A stretch of 64,000 nucleotides of DNA. It comes from Planotetraspora phitsanulokensis (GTDB taxonomy: Bacteria; Actinomycetota; Actinomycetes; Streptosporangiales; Streptosporangiaceae). The stretch is taken from the NCBI RefSeq assembly GCF_016863295.1, contig NZ_BOOP01000001.1, forward strand, positions 124,001 to 188,000. Reading direction: 5' to 3'. Below the pieces are notes generated by a model. The model was not told where the DNA came from. It searched no databases and saw only the letters and a program-made list of their open reading frames with translations. Shown here one piece after another: positions 51,684-57,441 of the stretch (position 1 is its first letter; the number at the start of each line of letters is the position of its first letter). The translations under genes were made by a program, and so were the position numbers.

Positions 51684-53207
51684 ATGTTGCTGAGGGATTT
51701 GCTCGCCATGCCGGAGCTCCGGCTCAGCCTCCTCGTGGGCGAGTCGAGCCTCGACAGGGAGATCTCGGGCGCCCTCGTCACCGACCTGCCCGACCCGGGG
51801 CGGTATCTGGACGGCGGCGAGCTGGTGCTCACCGGCCTGATGTGGCGTCAGGGTCCCGCGGACTCCCCGGGGTTCGTCGACGTGCTGGTGCGCGCAGGGG
51901 TCTCCGCCCTGGGAGCGGGCGACGCCCGCCTCGGCCACATCCCGGATGACCTCGTCACCGCCTGCCGTGACAGGGGGCTTCCCCTCTTCAAGGTGCCCGT
52001 GGAGGTGTCCTTCGGCGCGGTGACGGAGATCGTGGGCACGGGACTCGCCACCGCCCAGGCGAGGGACCTGCGCGGGGCGCTCGGCCGGCGCCGCCGCATC
52101 GTGGCCGCGGTCGCCGAGGGGGCGGGCCTGGACGAGCTGGTCGCGCTCACGTCGGCCGAGCTGGGCGTCTCCGCCGCCGTGATCTCCGCGGCCGGGTCGG
52201 TCGTCGCCGGCGACCTCACCGAGGCCCATGCCGTACGGCTCGCACGCGACTTCCTCGGCGCGGAACGGCTACCCACGGTGATCACACGACCGGGGGAGGA
52301 GATCCGCACGCTCTTCGCGGTGGACCGTTCCCACCGCGCGTCCGGATGGGCCCTCGTGTGCCGGGGCGAGGTCGACGCGGAGACGGGCTTCGAGCTGGCC
52401 TCGTGCGTCGCGATGGAGCGCACGCGGATGGAGGAGGGCCGCCGGGTCGAACGGCGTCTGGCGGAGCAGCTCGTCGCCCTCGCCGGGTCGGGGGATGCGG
52501 ACCCGTCCGAGTTGTCGGCGCGCCTGCGCACCTGCGGGATCGACACCGCCGAGCCGTACATCGTGGTGTCGGCGACGGCGGCGAGACGAGGGGCCGCCGA
52601 CGGTCCCGGCCTTTCCGCACTCGGCGGACGGGTGCTGGAGGAGCTGCTCGATCGCCGGGTGGTCGCCGCCGCCGGCGAGGACGGGGCACTCTGCCTGGTC
52701 CCGCTCCGCGAGGAGACGGCGGAGGCCGTCGCCGCACGGTTGCGGCACCGGGTGGAGCTCCTCGCGGACGGACTGCCGGGCACCAGGGTGTCCATCGGCG
52801 TCAGCGGAGCCGTCGCGGGCGCCTCGGCCATCCGCGGTGGAACGGAGGAGGCCGGGCACGCGCGACGGATCGCCGACGCTCGTGGTGGGGGGGTGGTCAC
52901 CAGCGACGAGATCTACACTCACGCCCTGCTGCTGGCGACGATGCCCGGGGACGTCCGCGCGTCATTCTCGCGGCGGCTGCTCGGGCCTTTGCTCGATTAC
53001 GACCGTGCGCACCAGGCCGACCTGGTGCGCACGCTGAGTGTCTTCCTTGACTCCACAGGGTCGTGGAACGCGTGTGCGGAGCGCCTCCACGTCCATGTGA
53101 ACACGGTTCGCTATCGGATTCGCCGGATCGAGGAACTGACCGGTAAGGATCTCACCAGCATGGCCGACCGGGTCGACCTGTTCCTCGCTCTACGCGCCGC
53201 CTGGTGA
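51684..53207 (+). CDS. PucR-family transcriptional regulator
   Basis: 507 residues. The N-terminal PucR domain is LLRDLLAMPELRLSLLVGES, then LPDPGRYLDGGELVLTGLM. A GGDEF-like/CdaR middle region follows. The C-terminal HTH_30 is LSVFLDSTGSWNACAERLHV, then HVNTVRYRIRRIEELTGKDL. PucR proteins control purine catabolism and other nitrogen pathways. It is divergent from the xanthine-dehydrogenase-type subunit across 81 bp, the likely target. Confidence 0.93.
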   Translation: MLLRDLLAMPELRLSLLVGESSLDREISGALVTDLPDPGRYLDGGELVLTGLMWRQGPADSPGFVDVLVRAGVSALGAGDARLGHIPDDLVTACRDRGLPLFKVPVEVSFGAVTEIVGTGLATAQARDLRGALGRRRRIVAAVAEGAGLDELVALTSAELGVSAAVISAAGSVVAGDLTEAHAVRLARDFLGAERLPTVITRPGEEIRTLFAVDRSHRASGWALVCRGEVDAETGFELASCVAMERTRMEEGRRVERRLAEQLVALAGSGDADPSELSARLRTCGIDTAEPYIVVSATAARRGAADGPGLSALGGRVLEELLDRRVVAAAGEDGALCLVPLREETAEAVAARLRHRVELLADGLPGTRVSIGVSGAVAGASAIRGGTEEAGHARRIADARGGGVVTSDEIYTHALLLATMPGDVRASFSRRLLGPLLDYDRAHQADLVRTLSVFLDSTGSWNACAERLHVHVNTVRYRIRRIEELTGKDLTSMADRVDLFLALRAAW

Positions 53208-53210
53208 TCT

Positions 53211-53224
53211 GTCAGGCGTCTGAC
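53211..53224. terminator. Small hairpin between convergent pucR and peptide genes
   Basis: GTCAG (53211-53215) pairs with CTGAC (53220-53224) around GCGT, just after the pucR stop and 24 bp beyond the end of the small peptide gene. The stem is short. Confidence 0.35.
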
Positions 53225-53247
53225 GGAGTGTCACGCTTTGTAACAAC

Positions 53248-53379
53248 TCAGCAGCACCAGACGTAGAAGATGGGCTTAGATGCAGACGTCTCTGCACTTG
53301 CGGCCGTAGCATTTCCTCCGACAGCCACGCTGGCTGCGAAAAGTACGGCTAGCAGAGAGACGATGAGGCGGGGGCGCAT
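53248..53379 (-). CDS. Small secreted pre-peptide ending PIFYVWCC, candidate signalling peptide
   Basis: 43 residues, ATG 53379 behind AGGAG at 8 bp. Residues 1-29 are a Sec signal peptide: basic MRPRLIVS, hydrophobic LLAVLFAASVAVGG, and an Ala-x-Ala cleavage region (NATAASA before Glu30). The exported remainder is only 14 residues, ETSASKPIFYVWCC, ending in a hydrophobic octapeptide with two C-terminal cysteines. It is divergent from an HTH-TPR regulator across 54 bp. That is the gene arrangement of many RRNPP peptide-pheromone pairs, in which an exported, trimmed peptide re-enters the cell and binds the TPR domain. Its codon use is less GC-biased than its neighbours (GCA, TCT, GTA, AAT). 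The frame and signal peptide are clear; the signalling role is inferred. Confidence 0.75.
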   Translation of the reverse strand: MRPRLIVSLLAVLFAASVAVGGNATAASAETSASKPIFYVWCC

Positions 53380-53433
53380 TGGTCGGCTCCTGTCGGTAAT
53401 CGTCTAGCAGCGACATTCTTTCAGGGAGCGCCT

Positions 53434-54726
53434 GTGACCAGTCAAGATCTCGTCGGTCAGCGAATCAAGGCGATCCGTCGTCAGCGTGGTCTCTCCCAGG
53501 CTCAGCTGGCGCATCCTGAATTGTCGGACAGCTATGTGTCTCTTATCGAGAGTGGCAAGCGTACGCCCACCCCCGCGGTGCTGGAACTACTGGCCCAGAA
53601 GCTCGACTGCTCGCTCACCTATCTGATCAACGGCGTCACCGCCGAGCAGATGGAGGAGCTCCAGATGGGACTGCGGTTCGCGCAGCTCGCGCTGGAGAAC
53701 GGCGAGGTCGACGAGGCGAGGCGGCGCTACGCGGACCTCCTCGCCGACAACAGCATCGCCGGGCTCTCCCAGCTCCGGCTGGACGCCGAGTACGGCTACG
53801 CGCGGGCCAGCGAGGCGAGCGGGGACCTCAGCGAGGCGATCACCGTGCTCAACCGCCTGATGGACGCCGAGGAGACCGCGGGCGCCACGGACCGGCGCGT
53901 CGCGATCGCCGTCGCCCTCAGCCGTTGCTACCGCGAGCGGGGCGACCTCGGGCTCGCCGTCGCGGTGGGGGAGAAGATCCTCGGCGACGCCGACCGCCCC
54001 GCGTGGACGGACGGCCTGGTGGAGCTCGGCGCGACCCTGCTCGCCGCCTACGGCGTGCGCGGCGACCTCCTGCGGGCGAGCCAGTTCGCGAACGAGTTGC
54101 TCGGCGCCGCGGACTCGCTCGGCACGCCCCGCGCGGTGGTCGCGGCGAACTGGAACGCCGCGAAGGTGGCCGAGCTCACCGGCCGGGGACAGGAGGCGAT
54201 CGCGCTCGCCGAGCGGGCGCTCGCCATCCAGTCGGAGACCGGGGAGCCCCGCAACCTCTCGCGTCTGCGGCTCGCGTACGCCCTCATGCTCTTCAGCGTG
54301 CGGCCCGACGACGTGGAGCAGACCCGCGAGCTCCTCGTCCGCACGCATCGCGAACTCGCCGAGTCGGCGGCCAGCAAGGCGGACGTCGCCCGCTGCGCCG
54401 CGCTCCTCGCTCGCGCCGAACTGGCGCTCGGGCACCCGGAGCAGGCCGTGGAGCAGGCGCGGGCGGCGCAGGCCCTGCTCGACGACTCCATGCCCGAGCT
54501 CCGCGCCGAGGCCTACCTCGTGCTGGGCCAGGCCTACCGGCACCTCGGCCGCGAAGAAGAGGCGGAGACCGAGATCATCGCCGCGAGCACGTGGCTGGCG
54601 CAGGCGATTCCGTCCAGGACGGCGGCGTACGGCTGGCTGGAGGCGGGCGACGCGCACTATCAGATGGACGATCTCGAGGGCACCGTGGACGCCTACCGGA
54701 AGGCGCTCGCCTGCGCGGGCCTGTGA
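53434..54726 (+). CDS. XRE-type HTH regulator with C-terminal TPR domain (RRNPP-like receptor candidate)
   Basis: 430 residues from GTG 53434 behind CAGGGAG. Residues 8-65 are an XRE helix-turn-helix (GQRIKAIRRQRGLSQAQLAH, SYVSLIESGKRTPTPAVLEL). Residues about 75-430 are a continuous array of helical TPR-like repeats (LRFAQLALENGEVDEARRRY, AVALSRCYRERGDLGLAVAV, RAELALGHPEQAVEQARAAQ, AYLVLGQAYRHLGREEEAET). There is no membrane segment or kinase domain. This HTH plus TPR build is that of PlcR, NprR, Rap-like and AimR receptors of Firmicutes. It is divergent from a secreted mini-peptide gene, strengthening the parallel. Confidence 0.92.
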   Translation: MTSQDLVGQRIKAIRRQRGLSQAQLAHPELSDSYVSLIESGKRTPTPAVLELLAQKLDCSLTYLINGVTAEQMEELQMGLRFAQLALENGEVDEARRRYADLLADNSIAGLSQLRLDAEYGYARASEASGDLSEAITVLNRLMDAEETAGATDRRVAIAVALSRCYRERGDLGLAVAVGEKILGDADRPAWTDGLVELGATLLAAYGVRGDLLRASQFANELLGAADSLGTPRAVVAANWNAAKVAELTGRGQEAIALAERALAIQSETGEPRNLSRLRLAYALMLFSVRPDDVEQTRELLVRTHRELAESAASKADVARCAALLARAELALGHPEQAVEQARAAQALLDDSMPELRAEAYLVLGQAYRHLGREEEAETEIIAASTWLAQAIPSRTAAYGWLEAGDAHYQMDDLEGTVDAYRKALACAGL

Positions 54727-54865
54727 ACTTCGGCTCACCTGCGCGCGCGGGGGCGTCCACACAGGATGGTATGGGCGCCCCGGGCCCCGCCGGCCGCTGA
54801 GATCGCCCGGGGTCGCGGGATCGGGGTGTGGACCGGCCACCCTCGTCGGTAGCCTTGGGGCTGTC

Positions 54866-55450
54866 ATGAAAAGATCCCCGATTGCCGTAATGGCCGCGTT
54901 GCTGGTGACCGTCGTGCTGAGTCTGGGCCTGGCGGCTCCCGCTCAGGCGCACACCACGCTGAAGAGCAGCACACCGGCGAAGAACGCCGAGGTCGAGGGC
55001 CTCCGCAAGGTGACCCTCGAGTTCTCCGAGTCGGTGCGCTTCCCGACCCTGCTGGTACGCGGTGCGGGCGGCAAGCGCTACGAGAGCGGCCAGCCCGTCG
55101 TCAACGGGGTGAAGGTGAGCGTGGGCGTCGACGCGTCGATCCCCGCCGGCGCGTACACCATCGCCTGGCGGGTCGTCTCCGAGGACGGCCACCCGCTGAC
55201 CGGGGAGATCCCCTTCACAGTGGCCGGCGAGTCGTCCCCGCCCGCCACGCGGACCCCGTCCGCGACGCCCACTCCCGCCGCGTCCGACACGGCGACCACG
55301 TCCGCCGCCCCCGCGCCGGCCGTCGCCGCCAGCCCCGCCGCGGACACTCAGCAGGACAAGCCGCTGATCCCCGGCTGGGTCTGGGTTGTCCTTTTCGGCG
55401 TCGGGGGGATCTTCCTCGGCATGTACATCAGCATGCGGAAGAAGAAGTGA
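54866..55450 (+). CDS. CopC-domain copper-resistance protein, membrane-anchored
   Basis: 194 residues. A Sec signal peptide (MAALLVTVVLSLGLAAPAQA) is cut just before His (AHTTLKSSTPAKNAEVEG), leaving the free N-terminal His that ligates copper in CopC proteins. The second ligand region is EDGHPLTGEIPF. A Thr/Ala/Pro linker and a C-terminal membrane helix (VWVVLFGVGGIFLGMYI) with a basic tail follow. It probably carries copper on the outside and hands it to the CopD-CtaG protein encoded next, whose start overlaps by GTGA. Confidence 0.9.
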   Translation: MKRSPIAVMAALLVTVVLSLGLAAPAQAHTTLKSSTPAKNAEVEGLRKVTLEFSESVRFPTLLVRGAGGKRYESGQPVVNGVKVSVGVDASIPAGAYTIAWRVVSEDGHPLTGEIPFTVAGESSPPATRTPSATPTPAASDTATTSAAPAPAVAASPAADTQQDKPLIPGWVWVVLFGVGGIFLGMYISMRKKK

Positions 55451-57441
55451 ACAGGACACTGCGGCTGACCGTCGCCGCCCTCTGCGCCGCGGCGGGAGCC
55501 CTCGTCATCGGGATGGTCGTAGGAGGCGCCGCCACCCCCCGCCTCATCCCGGGCCTGCCCGACCAGGGCACGCTGACGCGCTGGATGCTGCCCTTCTCGA
55601 AGCTGGGGATGGACGTCGCCGGCGTGCTGACCGTGGGCCTGCTGGCCATCGGCGCGGTCCTGCTGCCCAGTGACAAGGGCCTGCTCGGCAAGTCCGCGCA
55701 GGGGTATGTGAAGGCCGCCTCGTGGGCCGCGGTCGTCTGGGCCGTCGCCGCGGCCTCCGCGCTGGTCTTCAGCCTGTCGGAGACGCTGGGCGCGCCGGTG
55801 GGGGAGATCCTCGGCGGCAACGAGCTGACCAGCTACGCGAGCCAGGTTCCCCAGGGCATCGCGCTGACGCTTGTGGTGCTGTTCGCCGTCGCGATCGCCC
55901 TGTTCGCCCGTGGCGCGATCACCGCCGGATCCGCGGGGGGGCTGCTGGTCTTCGCCCTCGCGACGCTGCTGCCGCCCGCGCTGACCGGGCACTCGTCCTC
56001 CTCGCCCAACCACGGCCTGGCGACCACCTCGGTGGCCTTCCACCTGCTCTTCCTGGCGTTGTGGGTCGGCGGGCTCGGCATGCTCTGCGTCCACGCCCTG
56101 CGCGGCGAGCGTCAGCTCGACGTCGCCGCCGCCCGGTTCTCCCGCATGGCGTTGTGGTGCTTCGTCGGGGTGGGGATCTCGGGCGTCGCGAGCGTGCTCG
56201 CCCGCCTGTCGTCCATCGACCAGCTGTACACCTCGGCCTACGGGCTCATGCTGCTCGCCAAGACCGCCGCCTTCGTCGTCCTCGGGGTGATCGGCTGGCG
56301 CCACCGCGAGCGCACGCTGCCCCGGCTCGCATCGGGGGAGTCGCGGTCGTTCCTGCGCCTGACCCTCGGCGAGGTCGTGCTCATGACGGCCACCGTCGGG
56401 ATCGCCGTGGCGCTGTCGCGCACCGCGCCGCCGCCGGCGAACGTCCCGATCGACCGGGCCTTCGACCTGCTCGGCTACCTGATGCCGCCCCCGGTCTCGC
56501 TGGCGAACCTGGTCACCCTGTGGTGGTTCGACCTGTTCTTCGCCGCGATCGCCGTCACGCTGGCGGGCCTGTACGCCGTCGGCGTGGTCCGGCTGCGCCG
56601 GCGGGGCGACTCATGGCCGTGGGGCCGGGTCGTCCTGTGGTTCACGGGCGTCGTCATCCTGGTCCTGGCGACGCAGAGCGGGATCGCGCGCTACGCGCCG
56701 GTCCTGTTCAGCGTCCACATGACCGAGCACATGATCCTTTCCATGCTGGTGCCGATCTTCCTGGTGCTGGGCGCCCCGGTCACCCTTGCGCTGCGCGCGC
56801 TCAAGCCGGCCGCACGGCGCGGCGACCGCGGGCCACGCGAATGGATCACGGTGATCCTGCACAGCCGGGTCATGAAGGTCGTCGCCCATCCGGCCATCGC
56901 CACGGCGATCTTCATCGTGTCGACGTACGCCCTGTACTTCACGCCGCTGTTCGCCTCCGCCATGGAGGAGCACATCGGGCACATCGCGATGACGCTGCAC
57001 TTCCTGCTCAGCGGCTGCCTGTTCTTCTACGTGATCATCGGGGTCGATCCCGGGCCGCACAAGCTGCCGCATGTCGCCCGCCTGGTGCTCCTCCTGGTGA
57101 CGATGCCGTTCCACGCCTTCTTCGGGGTCGCGCTGATGAGCATGGGCACGGTGCTCGCCTCCGACTGGTACGACCAGCTGGGCCGTACCTGGGGGGCGTC
57201 GTCGCTGTCCGACCAGGTCACCGGTGGGGGGATCGCCTGGTCCTTCGGCGAGGTCCCGACGATCATCGTGCTGCTCGCACTGGCGATCCAGTGGTGGCGC
57301 GACGACGACCGCATGGCCCGCCGCGAGGACAGGCGGGCCGACGCGGTCGCCGCGAAGACCGGCGGCACCGGGAACGCCGAGCTGGACGCCTACAACGACT
57401 ACCTCGCCAAGCTGAACCAGCGGGACGCGGCCGCCGAGTAG
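55447..57441 (+). CDS. CopD - CtaG fusion membrane protein (copper uptake / cytochrome oxidase assembly)
   Basis: 664 residues with about 16 membrane helices. The first half is a CopD domain (LVFALATLLPPALTGHSSSS, ATTSVAFHLLFLALWVGGLG, LYTSAYGLMLLAKTAAFVVL). The second half is the caa3-type oxidase assembly factor CtaG: VLFSVHMTEHMILSMLVPIF, LVLGAPVTLALRALKP, MEEHIGHIAMTLHFLLSGCL, LLLVTMPFHAFFGVALM, with conserved His residues suited to copper. Together with CopC it should move copper into or across the membrane for cytochrome c oxidase. The fused architecture is common in actinobacteria. Confidence 0.92.
   Translation: MNRTLRLTVAALCAAAGALVIGMVVGGAATPRLIPGLPDQGTLTRWMLPFSKLGMDVAGVLTVGLLAIGAVLLPSDKGLLGKSAQGYVKAASWAAVVWAVAAASALVFSLSETLGAPVGEILGGNELTSYASQVPQGIALTLVVLFAVAIALFARGAITAGSAGGLLVFALATLLPPALTGHSSSSPNHGLATTSVAFHLLFLALWVGGLGMLCVHALRGERQLDVAAARFSRMALWCFVGVGISGVASVLARLSSIDQLYTSAYGLMLLAKTAAFVVLGVIGWRHRERTLPRLASGESRSFLRLTLGEVVLMTATVGIAVALSRTAPPPANVPIDRAFDLLGYLMPPPVSLANLVTLWWFDLFFAAIAVTLAGLYAVGVVRLRRRGDSWPWGRVVLWFTGVVILVLATQSGIARYAPVLFSVHMTEHMILSMLVPIFLVLGAPVTLALRALKPAARRGDRGPREWITVILHSRVMKVVAHPAIATAIFIVSTYALYFTPLFASAMEEHIGHIAMTLHFLLSGCLFFYVIIGVDPGPHKLPHVARLVLLLVTMPFHAFFGVALMSMGTVLASDWYDQLGRTWGASSLSDQVTGGGIAWSFGEVPTIIVLLALAIQWWRDDDRMARREDRRADAVAAKTGGTGNAELDAYNDYLAKLNQRDAAAE

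Follow-up and report, generated by a model that had tools for sequence, protein, structure and literature searches.

A recurring gene pair in actinobacteria suggests short-peptide signalling as in Bacillus and its relatives

RRNPP systems have been recognised by a five-point signature, namely a propeptide of 10-100 amino acids, its Sec export (SignalP), a receptor of approximately 250-500 amino acids, tetratricopeptide repeats (TPRs) and neighbouring genes, and the scan made with this signature covered Firmicutes and viruses (PMC10075063). The RRNPP surveys cited here concern Bacillota and their viruses (PMC10075063, PMC9765709, PMC12700828). Actinobacterial signals have been described mainly as small molecules (PMC4748050, PMC13220807), and cyclic or modified peptides are also mentioned among them in one sentence (PMC4748050). 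Here, a gene pair is described in a 64,000-nucleotide stretch of Planotetraspora phitsanulokensis DNA (NZ_BOOP01000001.1, positions 124,001 to 188,000; hereafter the window), consisting of a small gene for an exported peptide precursor and a divergent gene for a helix-turn-helix (HTH) TPR regulator. Comparison with related loci supports the original prediction, made from the window alone, that this is an RRNPP-like signalling pair, and we consider it likely that the two genes form a peptide-pheromone and receptor system working like the RRNPP systems of Bacillota. Four of the five points of the published signature were found in the pair, and the fifth, Sec export, was called by a hydropathy rule only.

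The small gene occupies positions 53248-53379 of the window on the reverse strand and comprises 43 codons from an ATG start to a TGA stop, with the Shine-Dalgarno sequence AGGAG 7 nt ahead of the ATG (53387-53391, reverse strand). The precursor reads MRPRLIVSLLAVLFAASVAVGGNATAASA followed by ETSASKPIFYVWCC, with the likely AxA cleavage site, called by eye, between the two parts. A basic N-terminus leads into a hydrophobic core and the AxA site, and this Sec-type leader (residues 1-29, ending ATAASA; 53293-53379, reverse strand) was recognised from the sequence and a simple hydropathy rule, not with SignalP. The 14-residue tail behind it (53251-53292, reverse strand), the presumed source of the mature pheromone, has PIFYVWCC at its C-terminus, and the codons for the terminal Cys-Cys (CC) lie at 53251-53256 on the same strand. 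The regulator gene (53434-54726, forward strand) has a GTG start and encodes the presumed peptide receptor of 430 amino acids, in which Pfam recognises an XRE-type HTH domain (HTH_3, E 8e-12) and several TPRs. In an AlphaFold2 model made from an input alignment of 57 rows, the HTH (residues 3-66; 53440-53631, forward strand) was followed by nine TPR helix pairs, with a mean predicted local distance difference test score of 91 and a predicted template modelling score of 0.79. The two start codons face away from each other across 54 bp (53380-53433, no strand), a spacer that presumably serves as a common control region; the listed close loci had a similar start-to-start spacing of approximately 47-63 bp. 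The genes, leader, tail, terminal octapeptide, ribosome site and spacing were all as first described for this locus, and Pfam and the model agreed on the regulator. The precursor had no Pfam match (E 0.001) and no NCBIfam match (E 1), seven relatives of it gave three weak NCBIfam matches far under the cut-off and four none, and a search of its own genome for further copies returned none that was convincing (next best E 0.5).

Four other Planotetraspora genomes were found to carry a regulator orthologue (57-63% identical) with a divergent small Sec-leader open reading frame (ORF) ending in CC. The regulator was present in 188 of 297 genomes of the family (E <= 1e-60), and its length was 420-469 amino acids across 160 loci, which were drawn from among the matches listed, with no places in G245, G092 and G005; the weaker genera were sampled in 16 genomes. 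At 120 of these loci there was a divergent CC precursor, at 23 the same type of leader with another tail, and at 17 none upstream; the script had given 120 CC, 20 with the W/P tail described below and 20 none, and three loci with a Sec leader and another tail (L041, L090, L095) were reassigned by eye. The regulators of the 17 loci were 32-49% identical, and five of these loci (L051, L052, L054, L147, L155) had instead, on the downstream side, a Sec-like product with CC at or near its end. The product beside the receptor paralogues of L147 and L155 was convergent and ended in GGGLCCYE. In the named collection, a precursor was found at 80 of 80 loci and its end was CC in 68; genera with the pair were Planotetraspora, Microtetraspora, Sphaerisporangium, Nonomuraea, Microbispora, Herbidospora, Acrocarpospora, Streptosporangium, Planobispora, Planomonospora and others.

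A further count covered 142 distinct loci in which regulator identity was 50% or more, a set that omits regulators below 50% and identical duplicates. At each locus, the divergent Sec-like ORF with the top score was taken from the interval 30-80 bp away from the regulator, blind to its C-terminus and with a filter that ignores the C-terminus and had been fixed after the first loci were inspected. Exactly one such ORF was found at 142 of the 142 loci, so that the small ORF is indeed conserved beside homologues of the regulator, beyond what chance would give. The C-terminus was CC in 118 and different in 24, and CC ends among the background ORFs (25-140 amino acids) of the same loci amounted to 132 of 6856, counting the 118. 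Two genomes had two adjoining receptors each (L026 with L077 and L032 with L118), and every one of these receptors had its own CC precursor with a different tail.

Comparison of the loci showed the pair, the leader, the conserved end and hypervariable residues ahead of that end. In 129 distinct CC genes, which were selected for their CC end and encode precursors of 39-51 amino acids, positions -3 to -8 were near random (3.6-4.0 bits) and 106 different last-five strings were found. Therefore, the family signature is CC and not YVW. Of the YVWCC-like end that the original prediction expected to be conserved, CC was retained, with W-x-x-P mostly in its place in one clade, and YVW drifted almost freely; the octapeptide PIFYVWCC did not hold as a unit, only its two terminal cysteines being conserved. 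In 36 pairs with no locus in common, yet not independent on the tree, nonsynonymous and synonymous divergence (dN and dS) were 0.41 and 0.59 in the tail, 0.12 and 0.21 in the leader, 0.07 and 0.32 in the TPR part, and 0.008 and 0.34 in the HTH (dN over codons 9-70), respectively. By these sequence comparisons, the HTH is almost frozen, the sensor domain is drifting and the exported tail is the fastest-evolving part except for its last two residues.

In one clade, with Streptosporangium, Planobispora and Planomonospora among its named members, the leader was kept and the tails were mostly of the form W-x-x-P (W/P), for example GWNHPD, SWSYPD and SPWQWPI; tails diverged further within this clade at L041, L090, L095, L203 and L216 (e.g. 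LGPLNNAE). On the receptor tree, the W/P rows fell into one clade (Shimodaira-Hasegawa-like approximate likelihood ratio test, SH-aLRT, 100) nested within the CC receptors; three receptors of this clade (L146, L147, L156) lacked a W/P precursor. When its 24 receptors were set against 119 CC receptors, changes were found at seven TPR positions where the CC receptors are at least 90% fixed, namely L87, E197, T201, R233, V236, A237 and N241. All seven are on inner (A) helices, which hold 47 of the 99 conserved positions, and all except L87 are on A4 and A5 (repeats 4-5); the Fisher p of 0.004 for the inner helices is no more than a guide, because the change of end and groove is a single evolutionary event. 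Helices A4 and A5 with the helix between them (residues 193-248) are encoded at 54010-54177 on the forward strand, and W240 in this segment was common to CC and W/P receptors. Nine CC clades, which overlap in part, gave 0-5 changes under identical treatment. In the listed CC receptors of other families (L051-L056 minus L050, plus L060), W240, N241 and R273 were retained, position 274 was Asn or Ser and A237 was mostly kept; E197 and R233 differed. Inner TPR positions were conserved, as the original prediction would require, and comparison showed a joint change of the peptide end and the inner TPR face. Of the expected covariation of end and TPR surface, a change of inner positions was seen with the end type, and none was detected for the fine tail, as detailed below.

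These changes also bear on what the peptide does. A secreted effector, bacteriocin- or toxin-like, with the regulator controlling it in response to another ligand, would suit a small exported product whose tail changes fast and whose gene adjoins a regulator. However, the change of peptide end is accompanied by changes of the inner TPR face, and a limited look at the neighbours revealed no consistent immunity or modification gene; an effector role is distinctly improbable. The regulator might instead sense the precursor or peptide inside the producer, gauging its expression or Sec export with no intercellular signal, and the pair, the leader and the groove changes are equally expected if binding precedes or skips export. 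The L111 precursor contains a WNGPD unit four times and the L090 precursor a related unit twice. On the view that the pair is a pheromone and its receptor, this is the pattern expected, because the unit would be cut out and used. The hypervariable tail and the multi-unit L111 precursor better fit a released, excised signal, and sensing confined to the producer is quite unlikely.

Beyond the family, the receptor profile found a match in 48 of 246 genomes of the class (E <= 1e-45). At 35 of 40 loci in eight other families, a Sec-like CC ORF was present within 800 bp on the upstream side or 1200 bp on the downstream side of the receptor, its arrangement varying, 20 of the 40 being from family f19 and seven (L051, L053, L056-L060) overlapping the earlier locus set; the regulators compared were 36-38% identical. 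With the same filter, the background was 1 of 142 two-kilobase stretches, the single hit being a precursor that belongs to an adjoining second receptor, and 0 of 30 in the 64-kb window. Four f19 loci (L300, L301, L303, L304) had an extra Sec-like CC precursor (e.g. ...DTPDGGSDFCC) convergent downstream, besides the divergent one. Related regulators were found on 14 Streptomyces plasmid records. Four of these were examined (34.5-39.7% identical), of which two had a downstream CC product, in one case at 1.9 kb; the Streptomyces plasmid products at L279 and L282 end in IPLCC or LPLCC and are annotated as hypothetical proteins. A CC product was not found at the remaining two, nor at the Streptosporangium plasmid locus L278. 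Sixteen receptors came from other classes of the phylum (L242-L257, approximately 30% identical where aligned), and 11 of them were near a Sec-like product of 28-34 amino acids, a thinner part of the comparison that has no background count; the 11 loci were L242-L244, L245, L246, L248, L249, L252, L254, L255 and L257, with ends such as NWPHH, KWPWG, SFPWGGT and APWPHCC. These short-ended products are perhaps an older form of the family. At L250 and L251, a small Sec-like product ending in TWSDGH or LSWSDGHL was co-directional and downstream.

Whether the small ORF is translated at all could be questioned on account of its composition. Codon bias in the small genes was weak (GC content 0.60, 0.61 and 0.69 at the first, second and third codon positions), other frames were often open (frame +2 in 86 of 153 genes), and the proportion of synonymous change was 0.19 in the leader versus 0.41 in the tail, all of which would suit an untranslated stretch conserved as regulatory DNA. 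In contrast, Cys-Cys and a stop were retained next to near-random residues in the 129 distinct CC genes, with the cysteines encoded by TGC or TGT and all three stop codons used. Moreover, in other families a like product occurs on one side of the receptor or the other, and two CC products from Streptomyces plasmids carry protein annotations. Conservation as regulatory DNA is barely credible in the light of these findings. A non-coding artefact was rejected on the conserved CC end, the pairing at all 142 close loci and the 35 of 40 loci in other families; an Rfam scan of 52900-55000 returned nothing at gathering score.

The neighbouring genes were considered as a further clue to function. In P. 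phitsanulokensis, the regulator is followed by CopC and a CopD/CtaG fusion (54866-57441); CopC and CopD are both found behind it in 74 of the 80 named loci, a linkage of long standing, and a PucR-type gene lies ahead within 4 kb in 53 of 80. Together with the two terminal cysteines, the CopC-CopD linkage favours a metal- or thiol-reactive (e.g. copper-binding) secreted peptide, the regulator being part of copper control. However, the 24 non-CC tails among the 142 close loci are mostly cysteine-free, and ten distant loci gave 20 flanking ORFs with no copper genes among them; nine of the 20 had no Pfam match, and some of these nine are probably wrong-strand ORFs. Their Pfam matches were to aminotransferase, ribonucleotide reductase, FAD oxidase, alanine dehydrogenase, sugar transferase, chain-length determinant, histidine kinase, BTAD, GTPase and EamA. 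Since distant loci have non-copper neighbours, copper is outside the core unit. A copper or metal peptide was rejected as the principal explanation, with the W/P clade mostly cysteine-free and the distant neighbours different, and is very improbable.

When the receptor profile was searched against the PDB, PlcR was the best natural match (E 1.8e-12, residues 4-188) and NprR also matched (E 5e-9, residues 120-356); designed TPR proteins outscored PlcR in the same search. The profile matches make common descent with PlcR and NprR plausible, short of proof, and the pair is therefore said to work like RRNPP systems rather than to belong to their family. The genome of P. phitsanulokensis encodes 14 SBP_bac_5 (Opp-type binding-protein) genes, which indicates uptake capacity only.

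Several findings weigh against a pheromone and receptor pair, besides the weak codon bias and the single origin of the changed end mentioned above. In a Foldseek search with the regulator model, PlcR came at rank 21, behind designed TPR, LGN and OGT proteins. Similarity of tails and similarity of inner helices in CC loci showed no covariation beyond relatedness, as 276 of 500 within-cluster permutations reached the observed value. Residue 241 was Met in the CC receptor L046 and Glu in four others (L158, L261, L264, L273), all from the family of P. phitsanulokensis, and N241 is therefore not strictly needed for CC. A conservation search of the divergent stretch identified no operator, mainly the two ribosome sites standing out, and no target genes of the regulator were found. 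No peptide gene was recognised beside the regulator at 11 loci of the related genus g37 (L049, L262, L263, L265-L272), nor adjoining it at one locus of g66 and five of g67 (L047, L048, L152-L154, L259), and no candidate peptide was found for a paralogue in the P. phitsanulokensis genome (32% identical) or for some other paralogues. The g37 and g66/g67 receptors have Glu at the N241 position, and at most g37 loci a PucR-type coding end, recognised by eye, lies almost directly ahead of the regulator. These receptors are a natural orphan-receptor lineage.

If the pair is a pheromone and its receptor, the 43-residue precursor would leave the cell via Sec and be cut after ATAASA, and the freed tail, or a shorter piece ending in YVWCC, would accumulate outside. 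The peptide would then re-enter through one of the Opp-type transporters of the cell, and its Cys-Cys end may dock in the concave TPR groove near inner helices A4-A6. Binding would alter how the regulator contacts DNA in the 54-bp divergent promoter, and probably at other sites too, with CC as a shared anchor and specificity coming from the variable residues. A more speculative extension, which we think unlikely, is that Actinomycetota have an ancient, phylum-wide peptide language of their own, in which the neighbouring cysteines form a protective vicinal disulphide outside the cell and both import and thiol reduction are needed for the TPR fit, the receptor thus reading density and redox jointly.

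The recurrence of the pair in many actinobacteria suggests, by comparison of their genomes, that these bacteria talk by short peptides as Bacillus and its relatives do. Actinobacteria are the makers of many antibiotics, and putative gene-encoded, easily synthesised signals in genera such as Nonomuraea, Streptosporangium, Microbispora and Planotetraspora are a possible handle on silent pathways. Ligand-receptor evolution could also be followed here as a natural experiment, the peptide end having switched once and the inner receptor face having changed to match. Peptide-signal uptake has long been proposed for the BldK oligopeptide importer of Streptomyces. The titles and abstract openings of the BldK papers listed mention no pair of a gene-encoded precursor and an HTH-TPR receptor. 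For Actinomycetota as a whole, no report of an HTH-TPR and peptide pair was found by title and abstract opening among open-licence papers, preprints not included, and because of this scope the result is weak evidence of absence.

Among known systems, PlcR-PapR of the Bacillus cereus group is alike in that an HTH-TPR regulator adjoins a small precursor, Sec-exported there and predicted to be so here, with the known or presumed signal at its C-terminus. PlcR is shorter and has five TPRs, compared to nine TPR pairs here, and we know of no Cys-Cys end for PapR. The PapR7 signal is ADLPFEF (PMC6568020), and the pheromone gene of Bacillales is immediately downstream (PMC9765709), whereas here it is divergent and upstream. 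NprR-NprX of Bacillus shares the HTH with a long TPR domain and the exported peptide, the latter presumed here, and differs in gene order and peptide chemistry. NprR has nine TPRs and a second role as a sporulation phosphatase inhibitor. The Rgg-SHP and ComR-XIP systems of streptococci have, as is proposed here, a one-component cytoplasmic peptide receptor and a short hydrophobic or aromatic-ended peptide. However, the TPRs of Rgg and ComR are degenerate (PMC9765709), in contrast to the canonical repeats with Pfam matches found here, and SHP is exported by PptAB (PMC10075063), whereas the present leader is Sec-like. AimR-AimP, the arbitrium system of Bacillus phages, also combines an HTH-TPR receptor with a neighbouring secreted precursor, as proposed for the present pair, but it is a phage lysis-lysogeny switch, and the present pair lies between chromosomal PucR- and CopC-type genes. 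Within actinobacteria, the gamma-butyrolactone systems resemble the proposed working of the pair in cell-to-cell signalling via a cytoplasmic one-component receptor (PMC4748050); their signal is a small non-peptide, and the putative signal here is gene-encoded.
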